From Branchiostoma lanceolatum (Eukaryota > Chordata > Leptocardii > Amphioxiformes > Branchiostomatidae): a DNA stretch of 64,000 bases. The stretch's first letter is position 1; the number at the start of each line of letters is the position of its first letter. The notes beneath the pieces were generated by a model, which was given only the letters and a program-made list of their open reading frames with translations, did no database searches and was not told the origin of the DNA. The stretch lies in NCBI RefSeq assembly GCF_035083965.1, contig NC_089725.1:30079925-30143924 (forward strand). Direction: 5' to 3'. The position numbers and the translations under genes were made by a program. Below are positions 14,801 through 44,252 of this stretch, in pieces.

Positions 14801-16030
14801 CTGTGCCAAAATGTTGCTTCAGATACTCTTCATCCCACAGAGTGTAGGCAGGCCAGTGTTTTGCCCCTCCTAGAACATGTTGCACAAAGTATAACAACAC
14901 AGATTTCAGTTGAAAATCTTTATGACAACAAGAACAAGTGAATTTTAAGTTTTTGTCTAATCCCTAGGTTACAATGACCCATTTCTTCAAGTTACCTTCC
15001 AGAGATGTGGCATTGGTAATGCAGGTCAACCCAAACTAGACACGCTGAATTCTCAGCAAGCACAAACCTTTGCAAAGGTTAATATCTACAAGCAGATGTA
15101 AGGACCAGGCTCAGTGTTTCATGCCTTGTTTTGCACCATTTTAGTACTGTTTTCTGTACTACACTTTTTAACAGTTTGCTGACAATGAGTAGGGTCCTTA
15201 CATCTACTTGGTGATTATGCCAAGGTAGCATGAGTGTATGTAATTTGCACCTGTAATTTGTACTTTGAAAGAAAGCTGCAGTTTGACTAGTCAGATTCCA
15301 AAGAGGATTGTCCACAAAGCTATTCAATGGTTTCTAAAGTGCATGAAGAATGTGTCATCCAAAAATCAGAGAAATTCCTTTGGAATATCCTGGACAAAAT
15401 CCCCCTGCCATGAATAGCAACTTTCCGATAATCAAAACAATCGAAACCCTTAATTAAATGTTGTGAATACCTAATACTAATAATTGAAGACTAAGTGTCC
15501 TCCTTGTTTGCACCAACTATCTAAGTTGAACTGTAACAAGATAACCCCCACTTGATAAGACAACACATGTAAGTGTATTGAACTTTGTTATACTGATGAT
15601 TTTACTGTTTTTGTAGTCTTGGCCCCATTGAAAATCAATTCTGTCAAACCACGCTGCATGCAATATACAGTATATCAAAGCAGTAAATTGTCCCTATCAT
15701 AGTTTCGGTCGCACCTTTAAACAGCAGCGGCCTGTGTTTGGCCACGAAGTGTTGGTGGAAGTCTTCGGGGGAGATCATGTACGGAAGCACCGCGACGTCT
15801 CCGGCGGGCTGGCGGTGGGACCCGAACGGCTGCCCGTGTCCCCTGCGCCGCTCTGACGTTCCTTCTTCGCCCGACACTGCGCTTCCTTGAGAACAGTCTC
15901 CCCTCGTGCAGAATCCCGCACCTTCTTCTGATGACGGCGAACTCGGAGAGCTCTCATCGCCAAACGCCTTCAAGTCCAGTAGAACTAGAAGTATACTTAG
16001 GACTATTGACAGGAAATATCTTGGAAACAT
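11829..16030 (-). CDS. Secretory JmjC/cupin-8 domain protein, 7 exons, 444 aa
   Basis: Exons (minus strand): 16030-15715, 14869-14750, 14319-14201, 13753-13611, 13179-12947, 12611-12433, 12053-11829; phases agree throughout. Residues 1-23 form a signal peptide (MFPRYFLSIVLSILLVLL), followed by a low-complexity linker and the cupin-8 entry LLFKGGAKHWPAYTLWDEEYL. JmjC enzymes are Fe(II)/2-oxoglutarate oxygenases using an HxD...H triad. H180-I-D182 is present in SKLHIDTQE, but in the GDLLYVPQMWWRQV block R258 stands where family members carry the second histidine, about 80 residues downstream. The protein may therefore be a pseudo-oxygenase. Exon 5 carries a 7-residue KQEREQS-type repeat, and the C-terminal tail (about 370-444) is Cys-rich, fitting a lumenal or secreted protein. 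No KDEL is present. I cannot assign an orthologue. It shares a divergent promoter region with the coiled-coil gene. Confidence 0.85.
12640..12840. repeat. Two decayed copies of the JmjC exon 6 acceptor region
   Basis: Upstream (gene sense) of exon 6 acceptor at 12611, the segments about 12645-12725 and 12755-12835 repeat the exon edge. Both contain GTTCTGGAC / GTTGTGGACCC, a CAGCCAG/AGCCA block, the GGTTTTCCT acceptor neighbourhood and an ACACCAAACATCATAA-like intron tract. Coding potential is lost. Confidence 0.7.
13360..13510. repeat. Short tandem repeat with inverted counterpart
   Basis: Four units built on CGCTATGTTCCGACAC (13360-13435) are followed by CCCTAACCCTAACG. The next block, TGTTGGAACAAAGGGGTGTC, is complementary to the first half, giving a potential hairpin. 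The CCCTAACCCTAAC..GGACCATAGG segment matches the non-exon half of the units at 11276-11828. Located in JmjC intron 4. Confidence 0.75.
13776..13870. repeat. Decayed copy of JmjC exon 4 acceptor-side sequence
   Basis: The segment CATAAACATCAATATCATTGG... to GGTTAACAGGCTCTAC repeats the genuine exon 4 5' half (13682-13753, same plus-strand blocks CATAAACATCGTTGG, ACACCAGAAGTAC, AGGCTCT). Its reading frame is interrupted. Confidence 0.75.
14405..14645 (-). mobile_element. SINE, second family, minus orientation
   Basis: It starts (plus sense) with ATCCTTCCCACACCTTT.GTGTAT and ends with a tRNA-like region. That region contains TTTAACCTGCAACCTTTCC, which is a degenerate B box on the minus strand. 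The same arrangement occurs at 39330-39570. Lies in JmjC intron 2. Confidence 0.6.
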
Positions 16031-16085
16031 CGTCTTGTCGTGCAGCTGTGTTCTATTCTGACCTAATAATGATGGCCCGTTGTCC

Positions 16086-16094: not shown

Positions 16095-16230
16095 TTGCCG
16101 AACCAGTTTTACAACAGACGCCTGTTCTGTGTCACATCTTGAGAAGCCAACAGGAAGTAAAAAGCTGTGGTGCGAATCTGCGGCCGGGCGAACCTCGCGC
16201 TATGTTCAGTCCCGGGTGTTGTCAATAAAC

Positions 16231-16247
16231 AAGATGGCGGACGGTTG
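16231..16247 (+). promoter_or_regulatory. YY1-type motif overlapping a 4-codon uORF
   Basis: AAGATGGCGG matches the YY1 downstream-promoter motif seen in animal promoters. Its ATG also opens a tiny upstream frame, ATGGCGGACGGTTGA, ending 39 nt before the main start. This could tune translation of the coiled-coil gene. Confidence 0.5.
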
Positions 16248-16286
16248 AGTGATTTTGCGGAGTTTTGTCGGCGTTCGGGCGAGAAA

Positions 16287-19200
16287 ATGGCGCTTTTCCA
16301 GGGGATGAAGGTCAGCAGGGTGGACCAGAAAGATGACGAAGGCGAAGGGAAGTCCCTGTTTTCGTTTATAACCTCTAACGCCTCAGGTAAAGGAGTTAAT
16401 ACTGTTATAAATTATGGCACGGATGCCAGTACTGGGGTGGGGGCGGGGGCCAACTTTGGCGGGTGTGGTCTCGTATAAAAACAGTTTAAAAACTTCGAAA
16501 CCCTTATTTTTAGGGACAGTAAGGGGACAGAAGGTTATACCTCCCATCCTCGTTGGAATGTTTAAGTTATGCATGCTTCAACGTGTTTCATTTTGCAGGG
16601 TGTCATTTTGTATCCGCCTCGATGTGTGCTAAATATAAACAATTTGTTTATGTGCAAATATTTACGACTGTTTGATGGAACCTCCTTGCTTGCTTAGACG
16701 AAAACAAATAAGTCATGTCTAGCCTGAGGCTATTGACAGGATGATCCTGTCAGCAGTGCAGTTATTCTACTGCTGACAGTGTGATCCTGTCAACAGTGCC
16801 ACTTCCATAAGTCATTTCATTTCATTGTAGATGGATGGATTCCGATGTTTTGTAGCAAACCATATCATAAATCAAATTGTTGTTTTTCTTGTTTCTATTT
16901 GTGTAGAATTTGAAATCATAGACTGAAAAGTATGTCAAACAGATTCATTGTCATTGTAGTAAGATGTCATAATCTTTTCACAAACACAGCTCCTCCAGTT
17001 GACCAGTTCAGTGAAAGCAGCATCATGATCACAGAGACAACAACAACAACAACAACAACAACAAGCAGTGTGGTTTCCTCATCTGACAGCGTCATCAGTG
17101 CCATCTCTAAAGTCCCGGTCACTTCTCCTCCATACACCTTCCCTTCTGGGCTGTCAGTCAGCGGGACTACCTCAGGTGTGTTTGTTTGTTTGTTTCGCAT
17201 GACTGGCTTTTACCGGTAACGACTGCCTTTAGGCATAGCACACCAGTTTTGAATGTACTGTAGTACGTACTAGTACTAGTAGGTACAAACTGCATAAGAC
17301 TGGACTGTAAGGTTTAATCATGATCACTCCAGGATGGACAACACCTATATATAACTTTTTGTGAAGTGTGGTGGGAGTTTAAACATACTCGAGATGTGAC
17401 ATCTCCTCAAACATGGCACCTCTTGCTTTACGTTCCATCTGTGAGAATGTCCCTAAGCAAAATTTAGGTACTCATTTTTACCTGAGTGGAGTGAGGAAAT
17501 AGGTGTTAGGTGTTATTTACTGTTAAGTGCCTTTCACAAAGGCACAGAATTTTGGGCCTGCTAATATAAGGGCTTCCAACCCAGAACCTTTAGATTCTTA
17601 GTCAACAACTCTAACCACAAGACACCTTCCTACCTTACAGGTTACAGTAGTGAGTCTTCCAGCACTGCGTCATCCCCTCGTGCTCTCACCTTTCCTGCCA
17701 GGACAGGTGACGCTTTGGCCAGCAGTGCATCTGTCGTGAAACTTGCTGCGTCAGCTACAAAAAGCACCAGGAAGAAAAGACACGGTTCCCTTATTCGGCC
17801 TGGATATGCAAGACAAGACGTGTCCACAGAAGGGCCAACGACTGATCTTGATGCTCAGAACTCACCAGTGTTGAAGTCAACCCTAAGAGAAGAACCAGAA
17901 GAAAGTACTAACGACCTGGACAAATCTGCTAGCGTAGACAGGACTTCCCTGGAAAACTCTAAAGTACCATGCCAAAAATTGTCTACAGAAGAAAGAAGTG
18001 ATGCCTTGAGACCTGACAGTAAAACTTCAAGCTCAAGTGATCTTCCAAAAGACTGCCACGCTTTAACTATTTCAAGACAAGACACAGCCATTTTGAACAA
18101 TCAAACTCAAACAGAAGAAAATCTTAAAGAGGAGAAGTCATCTTCCACCAATCCCTTCGAATCCCTAACCCTTGACGTTGCAGAGAGTGAACATGTCGGA
18201 GAAAAAACTGCTGTGTCCGGGCTGGAGTCACTCAGTCTTGATCTCAGCTTTGACTTGGATTTTGACCTGGACCTGGACATTGCCGTGCCAGACAGTGCCG
18301 GTCCAGATAACCTACCGTGCAATAGTGACACAGAGGCAGGACTGTTGGATGGTTTAGAGCTAGACTCTTTAGATCTAAAGGCTGAACTTCTCACAGATGG
18401 GGATACAATTAAAACAGTAGCTGACAGCGAGGAATCTAATAGTGTGCAAAATACAACAGCAGTTAAATCATCTTTTACATTTTTACAACCATCTGATGTT
18501 ATGAACAAATCTGCAAATGATAATGATGATGCTGGGTTCGAGTTAGAGTCATGTACAGAGAAAGTAGAATCTAGTGATGACCAACCTGCAGGAAAGTCAG
18601 AAGCCATGAAAGCTGAAAAGGCAGCAGTAGTAGATGGCTTACCTGAAGAAACTGATACAAGAGATTTACAGGTAGTCGATCTAGGCAGTGGTGATGGTGA
18701 GAGCAGCTCATCAGACGTAACTTCAAGAAAAGATGAGGACCTTGTAACGACAGATTCCAGTATAGAAGATGCCAAAGAGAGCAGCAGACTGGATAAAGTC
18801 AGGTAGGACTGGTTTATTCACACATATATTGGAAACATTACCAGGTGGCTAGATATGTTGTTAAGAAGTATGCAATCTTGCAAACTGATAACATACCCCT
18901 GGAGGTTTTATCTGTACCCACGAAACCTTCACAACAAGATGATGAGATGATGATGATACCCTACATAACTAGACTTCTTTTAAGATCAACCTTGTTGATT
19001 GAAACCTTTTGGCACCAAAAAGATCATGAATTGGAAATTACATCTCTTCATGATCATAGTGCTTGTAGTGAGAGATTATACTTTTTAATAAGATCTGTCT
19101 GTGTATTCCCCATGGCAGGGAGAGGTTTTCTAGTCTTCAGGAGCGGCACCAGAGTCTACTACAGAAAAGTGTCAGGCTGTGCTGCAGGCAGGTCAAGGTA

Positions 19201-22200
19201 CCTGGAAAGTTTTAATGTTATTCTGTTAACCGTTTTCCAAAGTTTCTTTCATACACCACACTGACCTTATTTCTTAATCGTATTAATACCTTATAATTAT
19301 CTCCTCTTTACTCTACAGAAAAGACAAGAACTCAGCAGAATAAAGACAGAACAGGATCTGGCTGTGAAGAATGAAGACTATGACAAAGGTAAGAGTAGAT
19401 TGGTTGTTTGTTGACTGCTAGAATGTACACTAGAGTGGCCAGCATGGTTGTAACAGGTGGTGGGTTACAATGCTACAGAACAGTTTACACAATGTAGCTC
19501 ATCAATCACACACAGTAGCCTTTTCAATGACTATGCTTCGTAACACAATATGTGGCAGTTTGTACGCTTTGTGATACCTTACAGCTTATGGCAACATTAT
19601 GCTCATATGTTCACACAAAAAGTACATGAAAATATCACAGATATTTGGTACTACTCCTAACATAGATTAGAAGCTATGTCATCACATCAGTGACAGTTGA
19701 GAATCAGGGATACAGGAAGGATGTTGAGTACTGTCTGAAATATTTGTCAGAAAGCGTCAGTTATTATTGGGTGGGCTGACCCTCTCTCATTGCAGCCAGG
19801 GACTGAATCGCAAGGATCTTACATGGGGATTCAAACCCAGGACCTCTAGGTTTTGGGCCAAACACCCTATCTTTACGTTACCGATGTACACTTTTTATTC
19901 ATTGGGAGAGATTTGCTAGTGGAAAAAATATTTTCATCCATATTTTCTGTTTACCATCCGCAGCGGAAGCCTTCAACAGACAACTGCAGTCTCTCACAGC
20001 CGACCTGCATGTCATGACCTTTGACCTGCCCTCCTCGGAGCCCTCCTTAGCATCGCTGCTGGAGGAGATGAGGCATGCGATGGAGGAGGAGGTTGCCATG
20101 GCAACAGAAGAGGCAGAGAGGTACACTGCCATGAAAACCAGGCAGGATCTGTGCTTGAAAGAGCTGAAGATGACAAAACAGGTGGAATTGAACAGGTATG
20201 TGGAATGTCATGAAGAATGTCATGTAGTGGCGTCGTGTGGCGCAATCGGTAGCTAGGGTGTTTCGCCTAGAACCGAGAGGTCCCGGGTTCGAAACCACTG
20301 CCATGCCCCCATGTTGTGCCCTTGGGAAAGGCACTTTACACGATTTTCCTCACTCCACCCAGGTGTGAATGGGTACCTGACTTTGGTTGGGGAAGGTCGT
20401 ATTGAGGTCACCTGGTGGCGCTGAATGGCAACCGACCAGACCCTTGCGACAGTTCCACAAAGTGCAAGTGTGGAGCAAATATGTATCTGTTGTGTATTAT
20501 GTGATTGTATGCCCTGCAGCAATTCAGCACTGGCTGCCATTGCATGGGTAATTTCTGACCAATAAACCATTATTATTATGTAGTAAAATCTATTTTTGAA
20601 ATTGAGTATGCAATGTTTACTGTTATAAATTGCGATTATTGTCATGTCTTACATTATATCCAGTGATGACTTTATTTACACTTTTTACTCAGGGAGAAGC
20701 AAAAACTTACAACACTTCAGGATCAACTTGCCATGGCAGCAAGGTACAGACTTAAGAATTGTTTTCTTGTCATGCAGATTTATTTTGGCAAGATTAAAAA
20801 AGAATAGTCAATGGTTGCTCTTACTTTGATATACTGAATACATAATGTTTTTTAGCTACAGCATTGATTCAAAGCTGTTTTCAAAGTCTGTTAGTGAACA
20901 TATCGTCTTGTGACTGTTAGTCTTGTCAGTTGATTTGGGCGGAAATTAGATACTGTTCAACCACTTGATAAGCTTGTAATAAACTTAAATCTGCCTCCTC
21001 GAGTCCCCACCCACCCGCATTTATGATCATTCCTGTCCCAGCCACCTGTCCCTTGACCGCGAGCACCTGCAGAAGTCGAAGGCGCAGCTGTCGAGCCAGG
21101 TGGAGGAGCGGACAGCTGAGTTCCACTCTGCCAGGGAACAGCTGGTGGAGAGGAGACAGGACATCCAGGTCTGGAAAATGTTATCAGGGATGTTTAAACT
21201 TTTCCCTGCTGCCTAACTCTGTAACCAAACGGCCACTTCAGAGTGCTAAAGGTTAATATGTAGCTCCTGATACCAAGCCTCTATATGTTTAGTCTGCAAT
21301 TTGCAAATTGTAGGACCTGATGTGCATTTTGGCCCCAGTACAATATAGAAAAGAACTCTAGCTGTTGTGGTTAGATATTCTGCTTCTATGTCAGAAGGTC
21401 ATGTTAAGATTTCTGTACTGTGAGTCGAAGAGTCGAGTTGAAACATTAAGCATGTTAAAGAACCCACCACACTTATTGATAAGAGAAAGGGGATACCTCG
21501 GTTTGAGTGAATGAAATCAATCTGTCCAGTTTTCCACACCTTGTTCTTGCTGAACCACAGATCTAGTGTGAAACACCCTGATGCAGCAACCAGTTATGCA
21601 ATACAAATAAGCCAAAAGTAAAAATTGGGTCTCTATAATCTAAAAGTAGCTCAAGATATTGTAAATCTTTAAATGTTCGTGATGGTTATCTTTGGTTTGT
21701 GACCTCTCCACCACAAAATCATGACACTGCGAATATGCATTTCTATCTGTTACTACTGTACTGCAGAGCTGTTTCAACCCAAAACATCTAATCTCTTCCC
21801 CTCCTACTGCAAAATTAAATCCCCCCAAAGATAACTGAATTTACCGTACATCCCTTTATCCTTAGGAGGAGATCTCTGCCCTTGAGGAGAAGCTGCGGGT
21901 TCTGCGTCAGCAGGAGGAGGCGGTCTCCGCGGAGATCCAGCTGCAGGAGGACGGCATCAGCAGGGTCGAGCAGCAGTTCTCCGCGGAGAGGGCACAGCTG
22001 GAGGAGGAGCGCAGGACCATCGACAGGAAGCAGGGGGAGCTGGAGGAACAGGCGAGGGAGGCAACACGGGAGGAGCACTCTCTCAGGGACAGGGAGATGG
22101 AGCTACAGGGGGAGGAGGAGAGGTAAGGACAGGAAAATGATTTTGTGATTTGTGATTTATTGAAATTGCAAACGATACAATACACGTGGGCCACAGGCAG

Positions 22201-25200
22201 CTGTTGCTGGTGTCGTGGCCCACACACAAGACAATACAAAGCACATAGACTACAAATAAATAAACATAGACTACAAATAAATAAAAAATGTCATATTGAG
22301 AAGGCTCTTATATCAATCAGGAAGATTATGTTTTCAGCAGTATTGCAAAAATGCGGAAACAGCTGAGCTGAAGTCATATTGAACAGAGAGACATTGGTTA
22401 CAATTATGTTATTGAACAACATGAAACATTGTCTATGAATGACCCAGATAGCATCAGAAGTACGACATTGTTGCTTGTGCTATAGACTACAGGACAGCCT
22501 CCAGTCCATCCAGGAGAGAGTGTCCCACATGACGTGTCAGGCGCAGGAGCTGAGCACCAGAGCAGGGGACATGGCGGCTCTACCAGTGTACACAGGAGTC
22601 ATCACCACTGACAACCAACAACTCACGAGGTTTGTCTGTATTCTTCTTCTTCTTCTACATGTATGTATTACATATCGGGTAAACTGCCTCATGGCGTAAC
22701 TGCACACATTTACACCAGATTTGTACTGGTGCATATCTGGGCAGATTTATTACAGATTATCCACCTGGTTGGCAGGAAAACTGAAGGAGTCAAGTTCATG
22801 ATATATAATCTAAAGTATCTATTAGAAGCATCCTTTAAGGTTGGAATTGCTGTACATGTAGGGTTCAAATTGATTTTTTTTATTAAGTTCACAGTTGATA
22901 TAATTGTGTAGCACAGCCAAGCGCATTATCATTACATCTACCTATGATGGAAATGTATAGAAACACCAGGAACATTTTTTCACATACTATTATGTTTTCA
23001 CTACAGATTGAAGAAACAACAGCAGGAAAGACAGAGAGAGGTGCAAGAACTGACCACACAGGTATAAGATATAGTCTGTCTCAATATCCTGTATGTAATT
23101 TCACCTACTAGAAGATAGCTGAAACGGTTCTTACTATTCAAAATATCTTTATATGTTTTCATTTGTTGCATATATCTTATGTATTGATTATCTGTATAAT
23201 TGATATCATAAGTATGTCAGTTCTTTCATAGTGACCTTCCAACCCATTGCTCCTTTCACAGGTCCTAAGGTATCAGACCAGAGTTACAGATTTGAACAAA
23301 CAGCTGGGTGAGACTACAGCCCAGGTGCCAGTACTGCAAGAGGCTAAGCAGCTGGCTGTGGCAGGTTAGTATAGCCCTGAATATCCATGCACTCCTTGTA
23401 TTACACGCATAAAAATTGAGATATTGTTTGGTGTGTATCTATGTGTGTGTTGGTCTCTGTGTTTGTGTGTGGTGTATTTCTGTTTCTGGATATTTGTCAG
23501 TGTAACTTCAGAAGCTCTGGATGGATTGTGATCATGATATTTGGTAATGCTGCGTAGGTCCTGGGAAGACGTAGGTCAATGTCGATTTTGGACAATCAGG
23601 CAGCTTTCCTTCGTAACTGTAGTAGGATCTCCAGTTTTTGTAACGTAATGTCAAAAGATGCATGCTTTTTGAGTCTACTTACCTACCTACATAGTCCCTT
23701 GACCTCCAGGTTGTTGGGGGGACAAGGTGGACATGTCTGAAGATTGAGAGCTGTGTCGAGGCATGTCTGTCTCTTGCTGTAGATAGCTTTTTGAACTTTT
23801 TTTGTAAGACCATTTTCCCTCCATTGCTTCACAGGTTATAATTTTTCTGAAGCCAAACGTCTTGCCGATGAGATCAAAGCCTTGGAGGACAGGAGGGTCT
23901 CTAAGGAGGAGGAGTTGGTGAAGGCTCAAGGGGACGTCAAGCAGCTGACACAGGACCTGGAGACGTCTCAGAAAGTGTTGAAGGAAGTCCAGAAGGAGCT
24001 GAAGCAAAAGGAGGAAGAACATGGTATGTTGTTTTCAGTTTTGTGCAAATGAGGATAATTTTGCAAAAATGATACGGGCCTTGAAATGCAATTCACCTAG
24101 TACCTACAAAACCTATTGTCTATAAGGAAATCCCTTTGCCATATTCTATATGCATAAAGTGATTTAAGAGCTCTTAGATTATTAGATTGTGCTAATGCTT
24201 TCCTTGTCAACTTTACAGATACTGCCAGAAAAGATGAAGCCTATCGACTTTACCAGGAACTGCAGCTGCAGTTAGAAAGGTCTTTGTTTCAACTGAAATA
24301 TCTTTATATAGATGTCTTGTTGAGGCACAACATTTACTATTTTACCAAGATTAGCTTCGAGACCGGACTGTAAGGAGTTGAACCGCTAACCGGGAAGAAC
24401 CCCTCATTGTTTTGATTACTGTCAGTGGTGGGTTCTTTAACCTACTCAAGGTGTAGCCCATAATAGAAGACATCACTGACCGAAGCTACCCATTTGAAGT
24501 GAAGTATTGGTGTTAAGTGCCTTTCCCAAGGACATAACATAGGAGTTTGTTGCTAGGTCTCAAACCCAGAACTTTAAAGTTTACAACCCTAACCACAACA
24601 CCACCTTGCCACCTAACTTAGCTGATGTTTGTTATGTTTTCCCCCCAGGTGTACGAATGACGTCATAAGAAGTGTGCTCCAGGCTGACATGATGGCCTGC
24701 CAGCTCTGGATCCAGGACATCTGTGAGAAGCACCACCTACCTCTGCCTCAGGAACTGCAGGCCCTGGATCTGCACAGCATCTTGGGGGAAGACGATGACA
24801 TCATGGTTACCATGGATACCTCTTGTGCTGGAGAAAACGGAACATCGAAGGTTGCAAGCTCAGAGAAGGAGGAGGTATTTTTAGAAACATTGAAGTGTAA
24901 ATTTCATATTGTTTCAATGGAAGCGATGTAATTCTTATTTAATACTCAGCAGTTGATGTTTTGGACCCAGATTTCCAGGTAGGGGTTGGCGTAAAAATAA
25001 CACTGTCAGGTCCATGTTTAAGGATAGCCACACCAAACACAAACTTTTGTTAAGAACTTACCAAACTTACAAACAAACACTGCCCCATCTGGCCCTCATT
25101 TCTCAACCCATATACAGACAAGCCCTTACTAAACCCCTTTAGCTTGTGTGTACAGTCTTGGCAGCATGTTAGCCTGACTAAATTACACTTCTAGCGGCCG

Positions 25201-26147
25201 GCCTCACACTTACCAGCTCACTAGAGAGAGGGGGCAAATTAAGCCCAACTAGGCAGCATGTTATCCGAAGCAAGAAAATAAAATCACTTTTCCTACTGTG
25301 GTACAGACCCCTACAGGTGCATTAGGTGGCAGTTGTACAGCTGAAGACTATGTGCAGGCCTGTGAGGCTTCTGGTGGCAGCTGCCCTGCTGAAGACTATG
25401 TGCAGGCCTGTGAGGCCATCAGCATGTGTCTGCTGGATTGAGAATCATTTTCCTTCCCATTCCAGGCCCCTACAGGTGCACCAGGTGCATTAGGTGGCAG
25501 CTGTACAGGTGAAGACTGCATGCAGGCCTGTGAGGCTGCTGGTGGTACATGCCCTGCTGAAGACTATGTGCAGGCCTGTGAGGCCATCAGCATGCGTCTG
25601 CTGGAGTTGGAGGACCGGCTGCAGGAGGCTGTGGGACAGGAGGACTACGACGCAGCCCATATCCTTTCAGGAGTGAGGGATGAGTGAATGTATGAATAAA
25701 CGGATTATTCAATGTACTAGTCTACTGTGTTTCTCCCATAACCCATCCACGTAGGGAAGAAGGACTAACACAGCTTATATCCCTTCACACTTAGAGATTA
25801 AAGAAGTGAAGGAAGGAAGGAAGGAATGATGGATGGATGGATGAGCTAGTGATTTAGTGAGTGAATGGCTGGAAGGATGAATGGAAGATTGAGACTGAAT
25901 GAATGAACAAAAGCACATATGAGCGAACAAATGAACAAACAAATGAACAAACAAATGAACATTATCAGACCACATCCCCAGTTATAATTAATTACATGTA
26001 GTTTCTCTTACAATATGATGATGTCATCTGTTCCTAAGCAACTGTCACTGCCTTGACAACAGAACACAGACCCTTCATGAGGAGATCCAGACACTGAAAC
26101 ACCAGCTCCAGAACATGTTAGTATCTCTGCAGCAGCACGACCTTTAA
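16287..26147 (+). CDS. Coiled-coil protein with repeated UVR-like motifs, 17 exons, 1,104 aa
   Basis: Exons: 16287-16386, 16990-17175, 17641-18802, 19119-19197, 19319-19388, 19964-20195, 20693-20743, 21042-21168, 21866-22122, 22486-22629, 23007-23061, 23262-23364, 23835-24023, 24219-24279, 24649-24874, 25466-25658, 26068-26147; all phases agree. Residues 1-95 include a poly-Thr tract from an ACA repeat. Residues 96-482 (one large exon) are Ser/Asp/Glu-rich and disordered, with an alternating Leu/Phe-Asp stretch (SFDLDFDLDLDIAV) near 295. From about 483 onward it is mostly coiled coil. EDYDKAEAFNRQL (528-540), NFSEAKRLADEI (858-869), AEDYVQACEAISMRL (1045-1059) and QEDYDAAQTLHEEI (1072-1085) share an EDYxxAxxLxxxI-type pattern like the UVR motif. 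I cannot name the family. It is probably a cytosolic scaffold or trafficking protein, by inference only. Confidence 0.8.
16735..16797. repeat. Short palindromic cluster
   Basis: GACAGGATGATCCTGTC is a perfect palindrome, followed by AGCAGTGCAGTTATTCTACTGCT and a second TGATCCTGTC. The cluster can fold as nested hairpins. It lies in the first intron of the coiled-coil gene. Confidence 0.6.
17330..17638 (-). mobile_element. tRNA-derived SINE in intron 2
   Basis: Same family as 32060-32455, read on the minus strand. The plus strand shows CTCCTCAAACATGGCACCTC, then TACTCATTTTTACCTGAGTGGAGTGAGG (split here by one-base changes), AAGTGCCTTTCACAAAGGCA and a degenerate B-box region ending just before the exon 3 acceptor at 17640. 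Confidence 0.75.
19780..19885 (-). mobile_element. Degenerate SINE head
   Basis: GGGGATTCAAACCCAGGACC and the adjoining TTTGGGCCAAACACCCT are the minus-strand tRNA-like head of the SINE family. The body is not preserved. In intron 5 of the coiled-coil gene. Confidence 0.5.
20226..20580 (+). mobile_element. tRNA-derived SINE, well preserved
   Basis: The head has an A-box-like TGGCGCAATCGG (about 20237) and a B-box-like GGTTCGAAACC (about 20285), spaced as in a tRNA-derived RNA polymerase III promoter. The body includes GTGCCCTTGGGAAAGGCAC and CTGGTGGCGCTGAATGGCAA, and the 3' end is AT-rich, finishing in ATTATTATTATG. It sits in plus orientation in intron 6 of the coiled-coil gene. Its head closely matches the minus-strand copy at 32455. 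Confidence 0.85.
21360..21530 (+). mobile_element. Degenerate SINE body fragment
   Basis: GTTAAAGAACCCACCACACT followed by TATTGATAAG matches the body of the 32-kb SINE read on the minus strand. The preceding tRNA-like region is heavily mutated. In intron 8 of the coiled-coil gene. Confidence 0.45.
22145..22345. mobile_element. Possible retroelement tail
   Basis: Starts with a TTTATTGAAATTGCAAACGA tract and contains GGGCCACAGGCAGCTG and a direct repeat ACATAGACTACAAATAAATA (twice). This is typical of an inverted retroelement 3' end, but I cannot identify the family. In intron 9 of the coiled-coil gene. Confidence 0.35.
24355..24615 (-). mobile_element. tRNA-derived SINE in intron 14, minus orientation
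   Basis: Plus strand: GTGGGTTCTTTAACCTACTC, then AAGTGCCTTTCCCAAGGACA, then TCTCAAACCCAGAACTTTAA near the tRNA-like head. This is the order expected for a minus-strand copy. It ends about 35 nt before the exon 15 acceptor. Confidence 0.65.
25307..25441 (+). CDS. Duplicated exon 16 copy usable as an alternative last exon
   Basis: This copy of exon 16 follows an intact acceptor (TACAG before 25307) and is in phase 0 with exon 15, exactly like the genuine exon at 25466. It encodes a TPTGALGGSC..AEDYVQACEA-type segment and reaches an in-frame TGA at 25439-25441. Inclusion would give a shorter protein ending ...AISMCLLD, without the last UVR-like motif. Each copy also contains an internal repeat of the GEDxxQACEA unit. 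Whether it is spliced in vivo is unknown, and a dead exon copy is the alternative. Confidence 0.5.
   Translation, partial: TPTGALGGSCTAEDYVQACEASGGSCPAEDYVQACEAISMCLLD
25659..26067 (+). other. Likely U12-type AT-AC intron
   Basis: The intron begins ATATCCTTT, the U12-dependent AT-AC 5' splice-site consensus, directly after exon 16 (25658). It ends in AC (26066-26067). An upstream TGCCTTGAC (26049-26057) matches the U12 branch-site consensus TTCCTTRAC at 8 of 9 positions, with the branch A 12 nt before the exon. Joining the two exons is phase-correct and restores a regular EDYDAAQTLHEEI helix. A standard GT-AG alternative also exists (see findings). Confidence 0.7.
25805..25970. repeat. Simple-repeat tract (GGAA, GGAT, GAAT, AAAC units)
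   Basis: Adjacent short runs of GAAG, GATG, GAAT and GAACAAACAAAT-like units lie inside the AT-AC intron. Confidence 0.8.
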
Positions 26148-27830
26148 CCTCTTCAAAAGCACGACCTTTAACCTATAGTGCCTGGTTTTGTTTGGACAGT
26201 TGTGTTTTAACAGAAGATGTACTGTGTTGTTTTGTTTTAGTTTGTTCCACCTTTTTCACAGTTGTTTTGTTTTGTTTTATTTTGTTTGTGTAAGATGTGT
26301 GCTAGCTGGCTGGCCGCAATGTCAAATCCTCAAAAACAAAACAGCAGCTTGAAAAGTTTTACATTACTTACTTAAGACGGAAAATGTACCAAAAGAGTCC
26401 TGCACTCTAATGAGAAAAATGTACTTTTGAGCACACTTCAGAAGTTAGACTGTGTACAAAATAATGGTAAAAAATGTACATGTAATTAGCTACCTTTGTT
26501 TTCTAGTGCAGCATAAACGCTCTTGATGAAATGTTGACTTCTGAATAAGTTTTGAAACTTATAAGCAATGGTTATAAATATGCAATATGTTGTATATATA
26601 TCCGTAAGTTAATAACATTATTGATATGTTAAAATTTATGTTCTCACTTATTTTATGCAGTAATAACTTAATATTCTCAGTTATTCTCAAAAACTCATTT
26701 GTTACATCAAAAGGGTCCAAAGCTTTATTGTATCACTTAACGGTATTTAAAGTCATGTGTGTAAGATGAAATTTGACTAAGGCTGAAATATTCCATAAGT
26801 TGTCAAGGCCTGCAGCACACAGACTATTGCTGTTTATTCATAATCAACTTATTTATTTTCCAGCACAAAATATGTGCACCTAAGTTATTCTAAAGCACCT
26901 TGTTGCACATTCCAATTTATTTATCTTTTATATAATTATACCTCAATATTGACAGAATATTATATTTCCTGAATATTTTTATGTTTTCTATTTTATTTGT
27001 TTTATTTCAAAAATCTATGTTCTCATGATCTTCTCTACTATGTGATTTGTATGGGCTGGTCCATTTTGAAATGTAAAGGGGGGTTACAGTCTGAAACAGT
27101 TTTTTTTACCCTTTCATATCATTGCTTTTATATCAACAAGCCAAAAGGAGACCATTCTTGTTCAGTGTACAGCTGTTTCAACCATTCCTACCCTGCTAAC
27201 AGGGCAAACAAGGTAAGGTGCAATGGTCAGAGCAAACTTGAGTTGGACAAGGATGGATCTTAAGCTATCAATTTTGGCAGTATGTATTAAGTTATTCCAA
27301 ACCTGTTTGTTTCATTTTGACTGCGCTCCCCAGCACATTTAGAATGGACCAGCCCCCACATTGTACTTGATTTTATTTTCTGTGCCTGTTTGCTTGGATC
27401 AGTTTGCGATGATGTGATTTTGCTGTGATTTGTGGTGATTTGGAGCAGTGTAGTGCCGACTGTTCTGTTGTGAGGTGGCCTCACGGTGCACGACTCAGGC
27501 TGAGTACACCTGCATGACCCCTGACCCTTGTCTGGAGTGCCTGAGTATTCTTTCTTAGCAATTTTACTGAATAGTGTGCAATTTTACTAGCAGGTGTAGA
27601 AATATTATTATTACTATAATCATTATTATCATTAGCATTTTTACCTCACTAGCAAGATTTTAAAGTTTATTTGTACATTGCTAAGCATTCTACTAGTAAA
27701 AAGATTGTCAAGTATACTAAATAATGAAATTGAACAGTATTAAGTAAGAATTATAAAAGTAATATTGCGTTGTATTTGGTGAAATTGCTAAGAAGACCTA
27801 GGCACCCCTGCTTGCGTAGCCTCTGTAATG

Positions 27831-27898: not shown

Positions 27899-28267
27899 TA
27901 TATTCAGGCAAATAATGATGATACCAAAGCATAAAGGATAGAGTAAAAGCACTGGAGAAGTCACAACAACGGTGGCAGGTACAAGTGTGGTCATGAGGGC
28001 TTCCTTGGGGTTTAAGTAGCACCTGGTGTTGTCTCACGCCTCTGCACTCTGCATGGGGGTTACTGCATGCTCGAAAAGCATCTTGTGGATTGATGAGATT
28101 TTTTTCCGATGAAGAGGACTTGATCACCTGATATGTTTTCTATTGTTTTATAAAAAAATTCATGTAATGTATTTGTTGTCTTTTCTTGTACACTTTGTTG
28201 TTGTTGCATTGCTTATTTCAAGCTCCACATGTACATGTATTATCGAGTCTCTCTTTGCACTCCACAG

Positions 28268-28319
28268 CAAGACCGATCAGCCGGGAGGAGCCAGTTGCCA
28301 TGGGAACAGTATGGGATAA
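28268..28319 (+). CDS. Possible alternative last exon of the coiled-coil gene
   Basis: A donor AACAT|GTTAGT inside exon 17 (exon end 26116) is phase-compatible with an acceptor CCACAG at 28267. Joining them gives ...LQNIKTDQPGGASC-type sequence, ending in TAA at 28317-28319. Phase agreement alone has a one-in-three chance, so this is a weak call. Confidence 0.3.
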
Positions 28320-30762
28320 AACAGCTTGAAATTCTGCGTCTTAGTCGTTGGTAGAAGTAACTACTGTAATTTCTTCAGGCCATTCTTGTAAACCTAGGAG
28401 ATAAAGGCTCGGTAAGGGCTGTAGGATGAATATTATGTACTTGAGTACTTGAATAGTACTTGAATATTATGAACATGTTGTTGCTAGCTATTTTCACCGT
28501 ACTTGAGTTCATACTTCTTATTCACATGATATACATGTAAGTGTAGTATAGTGTCACGTAAAATGCAATTTCCAAAGAGCTTCTGGCAGTGATGAAATAG
28601 AACAGAATTGTGAATTCCAAAATCACAACAAAGCATAAGTCTGAGTGGCTACTTGAGGAATTTAATGTGGAAATGATGTCATCCTTGTCACTTGTAATAA
28701 TTTCTGGTAACTACCACTGGCTGGGAGATACAATATTTAGCAATTAAAACGGAAGAGAGCAAAGTTGTACAGAAACAACCAGTGCCAGGAATCAGTGACG
28801 GTCCATTATAGCAATAACTGTTCTTGTCCTACTGTAAACAACCAGTTGTTAATAATGTTATAAGGAACAATTGATCCTGTCTACAGGAATTGAATGTGAA
28901 AATATGTAAGATAGATGTGAATATTAAACTATTGTGATATACATGTGCAATGTACTGTGTTCCCGTTTTCCCTAGCCCCTAGGAGATCACTGAAATTTAC
29001 AGGCATTCACTATTATGGCAAACCATTATTTTTCACAGTGACCTCTGTGAAACTGAAACTACCTGTGAAACTGAAACTACCTGTGGAATCATGACATTGC
29101 AAATTGTTTGAAACAAAAATTAAAAGACAGCAAAATCCTTCTTCCTCCTTTAGATTGAATTTTACTGTATCATCTATAACAATATGTCATTATTAATGGT
29201 ATGTAAATGTTTTTAGTAATTTATGGTTGGTAAATAGTATTCATGATTTTTGTGGGTGGGAAACCTACAAGGGAGTACCATAAAACTGAATAAAGAAATT
29301 CAAAATTAGCCCAACCTCTGTTAGGAGAGTAAAAAAAAAAAAGGAGGCAAACACTTCTTTCAATATCATGCATCCTGTTTATTATATATTAGATATGGCA
29401 CACATTCAGTTTGGTATTTCTATACAGTGGCCAGAAGCTAGTCAACGCATCAACACACGCTCAATGCAAAAATCCCTAACGAAAGGTACAATAAGTAATT
29501 TGCTATTCATTTTTATCAGAAAGCTGTCCCCTCCCAATTTTTCTGTGCAAGAGTTCATCCCCTTGATATTCTAAATTACCTGCTGACATTTTTGTTAGAT
29601 CCACATTGAATTATCACTATATTATACCATGCATTTGTGTTAACAGCAGAAATATATATGACACCTGTGAAATGTTTCACAAGGTTGGTAGATATGACTG
29701 TCACCTTTCTCAGTTGTTATTGTCCGTGCTTTATGTCTATTTCACCGCTAGACATGGGCTCAAGGTGCTGTACTCTGCTTGGTACTTAGAGAACAGTCTC
29801 TGTTCACTCACTGGTGCTTTAATGATCGTCTGATGCTCTGCCCATGCGTGCTTTGAAAGTGTTTTTCTTTAATATTACTTCTTGTCAAATCTTGTTGCGG
29901 CCAGTCTACTTATTTGGAGAAAGCCTTGTACGTCACCTCATTAATTCTATCCCCCAGGCACTCCCTTGACATTCCTGCCAATGTTTCCAAGTCAACTGTC
30001 CTTGTTTCTAGTTCGGTGTGCTGCATGTTCGGTGTATGCTGCCGTTTTAGAGCTGTTGTCTTTCCCTTTCGTATGTTGCACACTTGTAAATGTTCTGTAC
30101 TTTCTCTTCATCCACATGTTGTGCAGTCTGTTGTGCAGTCCGGGGGCACTGCAGGGCCAATCCAGTTTCAGTAGGCGTTCAAGTCTGTGTGGCCGCTAAC
30201 AAATTGATTTATTGAGATCTGTGCATGTCTTCTCATACCAATGCTCATTATTTGCATGTGCCCACTTGTAGGTTGTATCTCATTTCTTCTGTTCATCTTT
30301 GTTCTGCTAGTTTCTCAGTGATTACATAAAATCTGTATTTTTTCTGAACAACACAGGTTTCTTTAGTCCTTATACAGATTTCCGTCTAATATCATAGAAT
30401 AAAATCACCAGCACTGCACAAGCTACATAATAAAATCAACTTCTATCTCTTTCCATTTTCATTCAAGAAAACAGTAAACTACAATGATAGAGAAACTGTC
30501 ACACCCTTTGCAATCAATCCGAACACATGTTGCTGCTGATACACGAAGCTGATTGTCTCCTTGCTTTCTTCAAATCAAAACTACTTGTAAACATGTTGTT
30601 AATACCTTTAGTCATTATAATGAAAGATCTAAGACAATAAAATGGACAAGCAACTGAACTAAAACAAACTAAAAAAAATTTCCAGTGTCACAGAAGATGG
30701 TAACGTTTCTATACAAATGTATAAAATGCATGCCTATTGTGTTGTCGGTACAGTATCCTCAC

Positions 30763-31632
30763 TTATTGTCGGGTGCTTGTTGGCGTTGCTCTAGCTTCTT
30801 CAGTCGACTTGCCGGATTTTACGTCAGATTCCTCGTTGTCGTCTTCGTCGTTGCTCTCTTCTCTCTCATCTTGGATGTCAAGCTTTTTAAGTAGGGCGGT
30901 TATCTCTTCATCCGACATTTTGTTGACGTTCAAGATACGCTTCAGTAGCTGGAAGTGAGGGAAATCATCTTCCGTTTTTCCTTCTGGCAAGTCGAGTACT
31001 GTAGAGGTGATGCGTACCACGTTTGGGTTGCGGCAGTCATATTGCTCCAGGCTCGGATCGGCCGGACCTGGTCCGATGTACTTGGCCCTCACCGTTGCAT
31101 TTATTTGGTGGAGCTTGACGATTGCACCGCCCTGCAGCTCCACGATCACCATCATTCCTGGGATGTAGGCATCCCTCCCACGTCCCGCTTCTTCCAGCTC
31201 GTTCTCTATGTGGAAATGCGGGTACAGACGGTCAAAGCTGGCGCTTATCTCCTTGGCTTGGACCGCGTTGTCAACGAGTCGCAGCTGGTCCAAGGGCACG
31301 CCTTGTGGCCTCTTGCGGAAGTAGCCAGCCCTAGCTCGATTTAGATTAGGAGCCTTTCCGTCGAAATTTGGGTCATGTAGGTGTTCTAGATAGGTGGACC
31401 TTAACAGGAAGGCTCTGAGGGTACTTCCCAGCGTGCGCGAGAACCCATTAGAACCACCAAACAATTCGTTCTTCCGGGTTGCGCTTCGCAGGCCGCTGTT
31501 CCCAACCCTCACGGTGCAAACATGCTGAAGACGTTCGCCGTTATGCAATTCGCTTATCGCATTCATGACGACTTGAAATGAAGGATCCACATCAAGGAAG
31601 CACACCATTGTAGGTGCAGTCGCCGCCGCCAT
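30763..31632 (-). CDS. Intronless orphan protein, 289 aa
   Basis: A single uninterrupted frame with a strong start context (CACCATGG, A at -3 and G at +4), unusual in a window where every other gene has 7-17 exons. The product opens MAAATAPTMVCFLDVDPSF and has a basic middle segment (GYFRKRPQGV). A predicted alpha/beta region follows, with GMMVIVELQGGAIVKLHQIN near residues 167-186. It ends in a highly acidic tail (ESNDEDDNEESDVK, about 258-271). I see no signal peptide, membrane segment, zinc finger, nuclease or polymerase motif. It could be a lineage-specific gene, a retrogene with a distant parent, or a domesticated mobile-element protein. I do not recognise the family. Confidence 0.65.
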   Translation of the reverse strand: MAAATAPTMVCFLDVDPSFQVVMNAISELHNGERLQHVCTVRVGNSGLRSATRKNELFGGSNGFSRTLGSTLRAFLLRSTYLEHLHDPNFDGKAPNLNRARAGYFRKRPQGVPLDQLRLVDNAVQAKEISASFDRLYPHFHIENELEEAGRGRDAYIPGMMVIVELQGGAIVKLHQINATVRAKYIGPGPADPSLEQYDCRNPNVVRITSTVLDLPEGKTEDDFPHFQLLKRILNVNKMSDEEITALLKKLDIQDEREESNDEDDNEESDVKSGKSTEEARATPTSTRQ

Positions 31633-32059
31633 GGTGCCTCAGTACCTGTCGGGTTGTGCAGAGACTCGCAAGACGCGGCGTGCCCACGCCAAGTCCGACC
31701 AATCAGCGATTGGCAAATGACTTGAACAGGTAAACACTGCAACGGTCGGTTAACGTCGGCGTATGTAACCTATGAATGCAGGTATTGTGGACATCGCCTT
31801 GACTACGTTGTCACAGAAGCTCATCCTTGGCCCCCTTTGTCACAACAGAAAGGCGCTGTGCTTAAAAAGAAAAAAAGCCTGTACCTTTGGATGGTTATCA
31901 AATTATCTTAAAACATTTGTCCCGTAGAAAATATCAACGATGCGGGAAATCGTTTGTTCAAGAGTAAGGTCTTTTCCAAAGATCATTATTGACTACGTGA
32001 TGGGTCAAAATAACTTTGAACCTAAGATTGAGTTGACAACTAAGGACTAAGGTCTGACT

Positions 32060-32455
32060 ATTTATGTTTTTATTTATTGGTTAAGCATGTACATGCCAGG
32101 GTTACCCAACTAGCCGGAGGCTATTACTGAGGGCGAACGCATGTGTGGTCATGGGACTGTAGGTTTTGGACCATTGCACACCGGGACATGCCCCTACCTA
32201 CTCTTTTCGATAAGTGCGGTGGGTTCTTTTACGTGCTAGAGGTGTGGCTCTCCTCAAACACGGGACCTCCATTTAGCGTTCTATCCGAGGGACGTCTCTA
32301 ACCGAAGCTAGGTACTCATTTACACCTGAGTGAAGTGAGGAAAGTCGTGTGAAGTGCCTTTCCCAAGGGCACAGCATCGGAGCATATCGGTGGTTTCGAA
32401 CCCGGGACCTCTCGGTTGTGGGCGAAACACCCTACTGATTGCGCCACGCGGTCTT
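32060..32455 (-). mobile_element. tRNA-derived SINE, near full length
   Basis: On the minus strand it starts near 32453 with GCGTGGCGCAATCAGTAGGG (A-box-like) and GGGTTCGAAACCACC (B-box-like). It continues through a GTGCCCTTGGGAAAGGCACT body and ends near 32062 in an AT-rich CCAATAAATAAAAAC tail. It is the best reference copy for the family in this window. Confidence 0.85.
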
Positions 32456-33509
32456 CAATTGTTCGATTTCTCAAGCTACCCACGTTCTCGATCTACATTA
32501 GTTAGCTTTTGATTATGGTTCACTCGAAAATAGTGACCCTCTATGTTTTAGCCACATCACTAACCTGATGTACCATCCATGGGTATGCAAGGTATCACTA
32601 ACTAGAGAACACATACGTAGACATATTTGTAATTCTTCCACATTTCCCGACATAAAAGCTATCTCACAAAACAAAGACAACAGCATGCCCAGGACAAAAT
32701 GTAGTGCCACTGCAATTCCAGGGAAAGACGCAAGGACGCCCATTTTCGACCTTGAACGTCGTCCCAACACCTACCCACGTACCAAGTTCCATCACAATCC
32801 ATCAGAGCTTCTTAATCTATTGCTGGACAAAATATGCGGAAACACAAACAAGCAAACAGACACAAAGAGAAACAAACAAACAAACAAACAGACGCACTGA
32901 AAAAATACTCCCATTTTCGATTTCACAGAGGTAACAACTCACTCGTTCACTCTATCATCATCAAAAACAAAATTACTAATGCTCCAGCAGGGAATGCCGG
33001 TTGTCAGTTTCAGTGCTAGAGGCAGGTGAGAATGTATCGAGAACGACAGTGGTTTTGTGTTTGTCTTTAACGTCATGCAGTGTCTTTGTTGGTTGGTTAC
33101 AGTCATAGTTTCACTACAATAACGCAATACGTGTATACAGAGTTCTTTCTTTCAGCACACTGACACATACACTGACACCCAAAATGACGAGAGGACTGCC
33201 TTTTACCACGACACCAGTGTAACTCAAGGTTTCGCCGATCAGACCATAACATAATACTATATATACATATACAGGCCTGGTAAAAATGAGGTACCACACA
33301 GAAGCATGGTTCCAAAGCGTCACCTAGCGGTTTTTTCATGACTCGGTGAGCTGAGCATTTGTGAAGCATATTCAGCAAAGAGAGCGAGAAATTTATCCAT
33401 GCCAATCTGAAATACCTGACCATCCTTCTCCTGTATCTCCGACAGTTTTCTTTACAAATCAGACGAATCAAGGTGAAGGTCTGAAACTTGTAAGCATTTC
33501 TACCAAATA

Positions 33510-33839
33510 TGCAGTTGCGTACTACAGAAGCAACACACGCACACATACACATACACACACGCACACACACACACATACACACGCGCACACACAGTTACGT
33601 ACTACAGAATCAACACGCACACACACACATACACACACACACACGCACACACACATGCACACAGTTACGTACTACAGAATCAACACGCACACACACACAT
33701 ACACACACACACACGCACACACACATGCACACAGTTACGTACTACAGAAGCAACACGCACACACACACACACTCACACACACGCACACACACACATGCAC
33801 ACGCACACACACACGCACATCACACACACACACATACAT

Positions 33840-33874
<35 letters not shown>

Positions 33875-33875
33875 A
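33510..33875. repeat. Minisatellite of 70-bp units embedded in (CA)n
   Basis: GTTACGTACTACAGAA begins units at 33593, 33663 and 33733, exactly 70 bp apart, with a diverged earlier unit near 33511. The rest of each unit is ACAC/GCAC/ATAC dinucleotide repeat. The array runs on into pure CA repeats to about 33875. Long Thr-His frames across it are artefacts of the dinucleotide repeat. Confidence 0.9.
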
Positions 33876-34558
33876 ATGTTAAGGCTAAAATAATAGGGAT
33901 AAGCGTAATGTACTACATGTGTTGTCATTTTTCTCGGGAGGGCACTGAACTGTTACTTAGTATTGTCTATAAACAGTACGTCATTACACATTTCTTTGAC
34001 AAGGGCGTTGAAGTGTTTTTCGCCAATTAGGTCAATCATCGCCGTTAGTTTAGCTTTTTGTGCTTTGCACTTTTTGTGGAGCACCACCACCACCGGCCGC
34101 CTTAGGCGTGCACCCTGGGCGTGATACCCAGACCGGGTCTTGCCCAGTAATATAGATACGATAAAAAAGAATAATGATGCGGTTTTCATGATTTCTGTGG
34201 ATGGGAAATTTACAAGACAGCAACATTAAACTTGTGGGAAAAATCAACATGAGCAACTTTGTATGATGCCGGCATCATTCGAACAAGTTTTATTTGTGAC
34301 TTTAAAACAACATCAATACTTTACAAAGTTTGAACAGCAATCTTGCTCATAAGACACCTTAAACAATACCAAAGTATTTATTTATTTATTTACCAAAGTA
34401 TTTAAAGAAATGATATAAAAAAAACAAAAGTAGCTATATCTTTAAGAATGTGTCTATACGGTACACTGAAAACTTGGATAAGCCTTGCAGACAGTCTTTG
34501 GTATTGAATTCCTATCCAAACAAAAATCTCACATGGCTTGGATCTTTTCATGAGGTTA

Positions 34559-34802
34559 AAGCCCCCTCTCACCGGACCCGCGGCACGCTGGCGGCATCGC
34601 TGCGGCCGATCGAATTGACAAAGCACTCAACGAATTTCATCGACAAAGAGCGAATCTTTTTAAGCTTTGTGTGTTTTGTTGTCTTTTTGGTCATACTTGT
34701 ACGTTTTGAATAATATTCCATTAGAAAGTCAAGGGTAACACAAATCCAATTTAGGACGCAGCGACGCCGCCAGCGCGCCGCGGGTCCAGTGTGAGGGGGG
34801 GC
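34559..34802. mobile_element. MITE with GC-rich TIRs and TTA duplication
   Basis: The left terminus (AAGCCCCCTCTCACCGGACC, then CGCGGCACGCTGGCGGC) and the inverse of the right terminus (GCCCCCCCTCACACTGGACC, then CGCGGCGCGCTGGCGGC) form imperfect inverted repeats of about 38 bp. A TTA trinucleotide flanks both ends (34556-34558 and 34803-34805), the target duplication typical of PIF/Harbinger elements. There is no coding capacity. Confidence 0.8.
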
Positions 34803-34822
34803 TTATGAAAGCAGCCCAGTAC

Positions 34823-34951
34823 TAATCTCCAAGCAGATCTATAGGTTGCGAAGACCGTATCCAACTGGTAGAAGAAGTATGTTTTGCAATACAAGCTCCT
34901 TCTTCCAGTTCGATACGGTCTTTGCAATCCATTGGGTCTGCTTGGAGGCTA
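34823..34951. mobile_element. Mutator-like MITE with exact 9-bp target duplication
   Basis: The element starts TAATCTCCAAGCAGA and ends with the complementary TCTGCTTGGAGGCTA. It forms a long snap-back through GAAGACCGTATCcaactg / ccagttcGATACGGTCTTtgc arms. It is flanked by identical GCCCAGTAC at 34814-34822 and 34952-34960. A 9-bp target duplication is characteristic of Mutator-like insertion. Confidence 0.85.
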
Positions 34952-35672
34952 GCCCAGTACGTTCCACATTACAGCGACAATGGCTGGATTTACAAATGCG
35001 TTTTTGGAGTTGTCTCCAAGTCGCGCAGTTAACTGCAAGTCAATCAAAAAAGCCCAGCCATGCATTGTCGAAGCATTGCACATAGTTAGTTAACACGACT
35101 CTCAGTCCTTTGCACGAGTCCCGATGATAGTAGTCTTTTGTGGTGGAAGGTGCAATATAACGTGCGATGATCGCTAGTATGGAGATGTGCTCTCAAAATA
35201 CTGATTACAAAAGGACACTTTATCCAACAATTCGAGGTTTTGCCTACATTCTCCGGGCGAGATGACGTTCTTTTCACTGTATATTGTATCAAATCACCAA
35301 CTAGTTTTGCATCAATGAATCGCTTAGCAGCTCACGTCTGAAAGACTTTGAATTGGTTGATCTAAAACTTCATTTTCCACTTCTCCGATTGTTGATGGTA
35401 ACACCTCTCTCCGCACACGTTTTGAAGTCTTGGAATTAGATCAGTGCTGGTAACGGCTTCATAGTTTTGCTGTGTCGTTTGCCATCCTGGCTTTTTGCGG
35501 CAGTTTTCCAACTGGAAATCGCAATGTTCCCGTTGATCGCCAGAATGACGGGTATGATGACACGGAAACCTCACGTTCAATTCCACGCATTCTCTCAGAT
35601 TTCACGTCGTAGCTCCATGGTGACAGTGTCTATGCACTTTTTTTCCACACATATAAATGTATTTTTCCAAAC

Positions 35673-44252
<8,580 letters not shown>

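Follow-up and report, generated by a model that had tools for sequence, protein, structure and literature searches.

We propose that intron 16 of a lancelet DISC1 orthologue is very probably a minor-class, U12-type AT-AC intron, located at 25659-26067 of the window, as we call the whole stretch of 64,000 nucleotides analysed. The gene, which had gone unnamed in the earlier note, is by its homology an orthologue of DISC1, related to the human gene that has been linked to schizophrenia. The splice signals, the reading frame, the similarity to DISC1 and the poor performance of competing GT-AG introns can be read directly from the DNA. A U12-type AT-AC intron had already been suggested here by the earlier note, and we prefer this reading as the best model because of splice-site strength, the spacing of its branch site and, more weakly, its UVR profile score. 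The features of the intron are the following.

25659-26067, plus strand: predicted U12-type AT-AC intron 16, 409 nt, phase 1, identified by donor, branch site, end and frame
25659-25667, plus strand: predicted U12-type 5' splice site, ATATCCTTT
26049-26057, plus strand: predicted U12-type branch-point sequence, TGCCTTGAC, with its A (26056) 11 nt before the last intron base
26066-26067, plus strand: AC 3' terminus; of five AC ends close by, no other leaves the frame open to its natural end

The gene model lies on the plus strand, with an ATG at 16287 and a stop codon ending at 26147. Its parts are listed below.

16287-26147, plus strand: DISC1 orthologue, modelled with 17 coding exons and 1104 aa (exon ends chosen by eye, then verified with a script; C-terminal homology by phmmer)
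19319-20195, plus strand: UVR-like repeat 1 (NEDYDKAEAFNRQLQSL), exons 5-6, split by a phase-1 GT-AG intron at 19389-19963 (Pfam UVR 17.3 bits, below cut-off; aligned to mouse DISC1, i-E 0.17 for this stretch alone)
23835-24023, plus strand: UVR-like repeat 2 (YNFSEAKRLADEIKAL), exon 13, aligned to mouse FSTAKELTEEIWAL in the best stretch (i-E 7e-11), with no Pfam UVR match
25466-25658, plus strand: exon 16, encoding the first helix of UVR-like repeat 3 together with its loop (CEAISMRLLELEDRLQEAVGQEDYDAA), in a gap-free alignment to the mouse DISC1 C-terminus
26068-26147, plus strand: exon 17, encoding the second helix of the same repeat 3 (QTLHEEIQTLKHQLQNM...) and ending with the stop codon, from the model and the mouse DISC1 alignment

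Introns 1-15 of the model are of the GT-AG type, partly by construction, since their ends were chosen by eye as GT...AG; 13 of the acceptors read CAG and two TAG. The homology evidence covers the C-terminal 606 aa, and the N-terminal part, with exons 1-4, is putative. The C-terminal part of the model is supported by its long open frame together with its match to DISC1. In phmmer searches, this 606-aa part matched mouse DISC1 (PDB 9rux) with an E-value of 1.5e-14, and the same query matched the C-terminal constructs 5yi4 (E 8e-5) and 6irr (E 1.3e-4). The similarity thus extends over the DISC1 core and the C-terminal module. The alignment to the mouse protein includes UVR-like repeats 1 and 2, and on this evidence as a whole we assign the gene as a DISC1 orthologue. 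This identity came only via PDB sequences, because Pfam gave nothing above cut-off: the full 1104-aa product had a single match below the cut-off of its family, and the read-through frames of 16200-26191 had one match far below its own. An Rfam scan of the window at gathering thresholds returned 0 matches.

DISC1 has three UVR-like repeats, of which 5YI4 represents the third, according to the consulted passages of PMC8527833. Those of PMC13273187 describe repeats 1 and 2 as forming the tetrameric core, and NDE1 as binding a C-terminal module apart from it. Three UVR-like repeats are likewise present in the core and C-terminus of the modelled protein. All of them align to mouse DISC1, repeat 1 weakly (NEDYDKAEAF against mouse DGDYDTAETL) and repeat 2 as FSEAKRLADEIKAL against FSTAKELTEEIWAL. 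We term them UVR-like because their scores fall below the Pfam UVR (PF02151) gathering cut-off of 21.5 bits, with 17.3 bits for repeat 1 and 16.3 bits for repeat 3. The C-terminal form with repeat 3 scores similarly with the coiled-coil family BST2 (17.1 bits, also below the cut-off of that family), and the full-length 1104-aa protein gave no Pfam UVR match. The intron 16 junction, which the earlier note had placed within a UVR-like motif, falls inside what corresponds to the third UVR-like repeat of DISC1 (PMC8527833, same passages), the module that binds NDE1/NDEL1 and ATF4.

Repeats 1 and 3 are each split by a phase-1 intron (19388/19964 and 25658/26068, respectively), a GT-AG intron in repeat 1 and the AT-AC intron in repeat 3. 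In a gap-free alignment of the two motifs, these positions lie one codon apart. The near match may be due to chance or to common ancestry followed by sliding.

Exon 16 ends at 25658 with ...GACGCAGCCC and is followed directly by ATATCCTTT, just where an AT-AC U12 donor had been noticed before; the ninth base of this site, T, is that of the U12 donor consensus. The likewise noticed branch-like site close to the AC acceptor, TGCCTTGAC, agrees in 8 of 9 positions with TTCCTTRAC, the U12 branch consensus. In the consulted passages of PMC2831892, the donor consensus is given as ATATCCTT, to which bases 25659-25666 are identical (8/8), and the branch consensus is quoted as TCCTTAAC, with which TGCCTTGAC shares 6 of 8 positions. 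The 11-nt spacing between the branch site and the intron end falls within the optimum of 11-13 nt stated in the consulted part of PMC3584512, where a weak pyrimidine tract is also expected of U12-type introns. In line with this, intron 16 has no distinct polypyrimidine tract, and the pyrimidine fraction of its acceptor region is 0.47, compared with 0.59-0.88 among the model's 15 GT-AG introns. The donor matches TATCCTT in 7/7 positions in intron 16 and in at most 5/7 in the other 15 introns of the gene model, none of which has a U12 donor. Five AC ends lie between 26055 and 26079, and the frame stays open to its natural end only with the one at 26067, where the intron closes with ...GAACAC. 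The AC terminus therefore comes with a coding join that is in frame. As previously reported, exons 16 and 17 are joined in phase; the phase is 1 and the junction reads QEDYDAAQTLHEEIQTL. Separately, ATATCCCTT occurs at 25777-25785, 118 nt inside the intron, and differs by one base from the U12 donor.

The peptide produced by the AT-AC join aligns without gaps to mouse DISC1 6irr (32.4 bits, E 9.7e-7, phmmer). For a wider comparison, 14,850 joins, with the last exon base at 25600-25689 and the first exon base at 25950-26114, were scored against mouse DISC1 by the Smith-Waterman method. The AT-AC join reaches 105, a score shared by at least 10 pairs. Two joins without accepted termini reach 108, and homology thus determines the length of the product more firmly than the position of the junction. 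Joins shifted by -3 to +1 nt from the AT-AC join encode an identical peptide, and accepted terminal dinucleotides occur among them only in the register 25659-26067. Of the joins compared, 178 have GT-AG, GC-AG or AT-AC ends, and two of these lead with a score of 105, the AT-AC join and a single GT-AG pair, 25673-26081. Next comes GC-AG 25652-26069 (97). GT-AG 25673-26069 scores 92 and the GT-AG pair named in the earlier note, 25684-26062, scores 86; a read-through of exon 16 scores 59.

The first alternative to consider is therefore an ordinary U2-type GT-AG intron at 25673-26081, with both ends 14 nt downstream of those of the AT-AC intron, which would give DAAHILSGEIQTL. Such an intron would be in phase 0 without a stop codon, would keep the helix register and would yield a protein of the same length as the AT-AC product. 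Its homology is nearly indistinguishable from that of the AT-AC join: 31.8 bits (E 1.5e-6) against 6irr, 30.9 bits compared with 30.7 for the AT-AC join against 5yi4, and the same identities to mouse on the two sides of the junction (12/30 and 11/22). The earlier note had counted frame and a regular helix in favour of the AT-AC join. The AT-AC join indeed has both, but frame, length and mouse similarity are equally preserved by 25673-26081.

The splice signals separate the two. With matrices built from the model's own 15 GT-AG introns, a small sample with ends picked by eye in which each intron was left out in turn, donors score 5.4-11.3 and acceptors 3.5-12.3. The donor of 25673-26081, GGA|GTGAGG, scores only -0.67, and 52% of the plus-strand GTs in the window do equally well; its acceptor, ATGAG, scores -0.93, matched by 38% of AGs. 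The gap between these scores and those of the 15 model introns is wide. The acceptor furthermore has a G at -3, which is seen in 0/15 model acceptors, and two AGs (26062 and 26069) lie between the branch-like site and this acceptor. When seven C-terminal forms were compared with Pfam, the AT-AC form had the highest UVR score (16.3 bits), 25673-26081 reached 13.1 bits, and the other five gave no match; both scores are below the cut-off. Finally, the U12 donor and branch site would have to be a coincidence if this GT-AG pair were used. We consider it very unlikely.

Still less probable, even when taken together, are the remaining accepted pairs, GT-AG 25684-26062, GT-AG 25673-26069 and GC-AG 25652-26069. 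All three keep the frame, the acceptor at 26062 scores 3.34 and so comes near the weakest model acceptor (3.5), and GC-AG 25652-26069 ranks third of the 178 pairs by mouse similarity. However, none of them gives a UVR match. The GC-AG pair deletes three residues and its acceptor at 26069 scores -1.3. GT-AG 25673-26069 inserts four residues into the helix, with a phmmer result of 25.2 bits (E 1.8e-4, compared with 9.7e-7 for the AT-AC join). GT-AG 25684-26062 falls to 21.7 bits (E 0.002 against the same 9.7e-7), and its donor scores -4.03, a value that 87% of the GTs in the window equal. The earlier note was right that this last pair is in frame and adds residues to the helix, but its donor is at 25684 rather than near 25682, and the insertion comprises 10 residues (1114 versus 1104 aa), not nine. 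Two further rivals, the GT-AG pair of identical length, 25673-26081, and the read-through to a stop codon, were missed in the note.

This read-through would make exon 16 the last exon, without any intron, and end at the following stop.

25685-25687, plus strand: in-frame TGA that would be reached if intron 16 is retained; the product, by translation of the model, ends with ...DAAHILSGVRDE

The frame is indeed open up to this TGA. Yet the read-through discards the second helix in exon 17, which matches DISC1 with 11/22 identities to mouse, and its Smith-Waterman score is 59 compared with 105 for the AT-AC join. As the sole structure of the gene it is extremely improbable, though the same form may exist as an intron-retention product. 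Taken by itself, sequence homology disfavours GT-AG 25684-26062 and the read-through, yet not GT-AG 25673-26081.

We return to the U12-type AT-AC reading and the question whether its signals could arise by chance. Over 64 kb the motifs alone are not rare, because RTATCCTT occurs twice on the two strands of the window, below the mean of 3.87 in shuffled sequences. Of 200 shuffles of the complete window, 60 contained a donor, branch site and end of either subtype, and 12 contained such a set that included ATATCCTTT. The window contains a second ATATCCTT (39339), for which the rules applied to these shuffles gave no fitting branch site and end up to 2 kb away. When intron 16 itself was shuffled 20,000 times, the 8-base donor appeared exactly at the junction in two cases, a branch site of equal quality 10-13 nt from the end in 10, and both together in 0. 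The combination of signals at the required coding junction is thus rare. A branch-like 9-mer with 8/9 matches, TTCCTTGTC, which lacks the branch A, also lies near the end of one of the other 15 introns (intron 13). An origin of intron 16 by local duplication was also considered, comparing the intron start CCTTTCAGGAGTGAG with the exon 17 start CCCTTCATGAG-GAG, and rejected, as 22% of 2000 shuffled pairs score equally.

We infer that the minor spliceosome uses the 25658/26068 junction in vivo. U11/U12 would recognise ATATCCTTT and the branch site TGCCTTGAC, and the U4atac/U6atac/U5 spliceosome would then join the C at 25658 to the A at 26068. This join would restore a CAG codon as well as the helical hairpin that UVR-like repeat 3 forms at the end of the protein, where NDE1/NDEL1 and ATF4 bind. 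Since all but the first residues of the second helix of repeat 3 come from exon 17, the partner-binding module needs the removal of intron 16 to be complete. If the intron is retained, translation would stop at the TGA at 25685 and produce a protein with the tetramer-forming core and half of the repeat 3 module. Under the general exon-junction rule, with the stop now in the last exon, the message would escape the decay that needs a downstream exon junction. One may speculate that the terminal U12-type intron acts as a regulatory switch, in which slow minor splicing yields DISC1 without the second helix of the NDE1/ATF4-binding repeat, but we regard this as improbable. If it were true, the activity of the minor spliceosome would set the coupling of DISC1 to its dynein partners, perhaps in vertebrates too.

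Intron 16 resembles known U12-type AT-AC introns in its ATATCCTT donor, its CCTTRAC-type branch site near the end, its AC terminus, its weak pyrimidine tract and a phase other than 0 (consensus, spacing and phase traits as given in the consulted parts of PMC2831892, PMC3584512 and PMC10639083). Nothing sets it apart from them in sequence. With mouse DISC1 (9rux, 5yi4, 6irr), the modelled protein shares a coiled-coil core with two UVR-like repeats and a third, C-terminal one. In contrast to vertebrate DISC1, the modelled gene has a long N-terminal half and a repeat-rich exon 16, and the loop of repeat 3 reads QEDYDAAQ rather than SHDEALFQ as in mouse. By impression, the lancelet loop looks the more UVR-like of the two.

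Human DISC1 is included in Table 2 of the preprint PMC12637451 among U12-intron-containing genes with altered splicing. This is supporting but not decisive for the U12 reading of intron 16, because the parts of the preprint seen leave the source of the U12 gene assignment unstated and the DISC1 event is exon skipping. The listing thus attributes to the human gene a U12-type intron, the class proposed here for lancelet intron 16, and gives the gene, not the intron position. Among the matches listed in the literature search, no paper says which intron of human DISC1 is of the U12 type, and none deals with a lancelet DISC1 intron. PMC11876696 holds both terms, 'DISC1' and 'U12', in unrelated passages of the text seen, and was set aside; the examined passages of PMC7367187 make no mention of Branchiostoma. 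This kind of intron is known, and intron 16 adds a further case to it; the human counterpart of the gene already appears in a list of U12-intron-containing genes.

The finding adds a clear AT-AC U12 intron to what looks like an invertebrate DISC1, inside the partner-binding module. The intron defines the 3' end of the gene, where an annotation limited to GT-AG introns would mis-join or truncate it. Should human DISC1 carry its U12-type intron in the corresponding position, that intron would be older than the separation of this lineage from vertebrates. The DISC1 C-terminus would then depend on the minor spliceosome, linking minor-spliceosome disease to a neurodevelopmental scaffold.

Several other features were observed in the window. 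Intron 15 contains, at 25314-25437, a 124-nt tandem copy, 92% identical, of the first part of exon 16 (25482-25605). The copy in intron 15 has its own AG at 25306, which scores 4.94 compared with 15.17 for the exon 16 acceptor; if used in phase, it would meet a stop after ...AISMCLLD. A 24-nt tandem duplication at 26125-26174 spans the DISC1 stop codon. Upstream, on the minus strand, pieces of a Cupin_8/JmjC-like gene were found at about 13.0-13.8 kb (best E 4.1e-5, below the family cut-off). Judged by eye, this gene (about 13000-16040) may run the opposite way to DISC1, with some 250 bp between the two starts, and a shared promoter of the two genes is possible. Downstream, on the minus strand at 28002-37991, Pfam recognises portions of the catalytic domain of an alpha-amylase (PF00128, E 1.9e-26).
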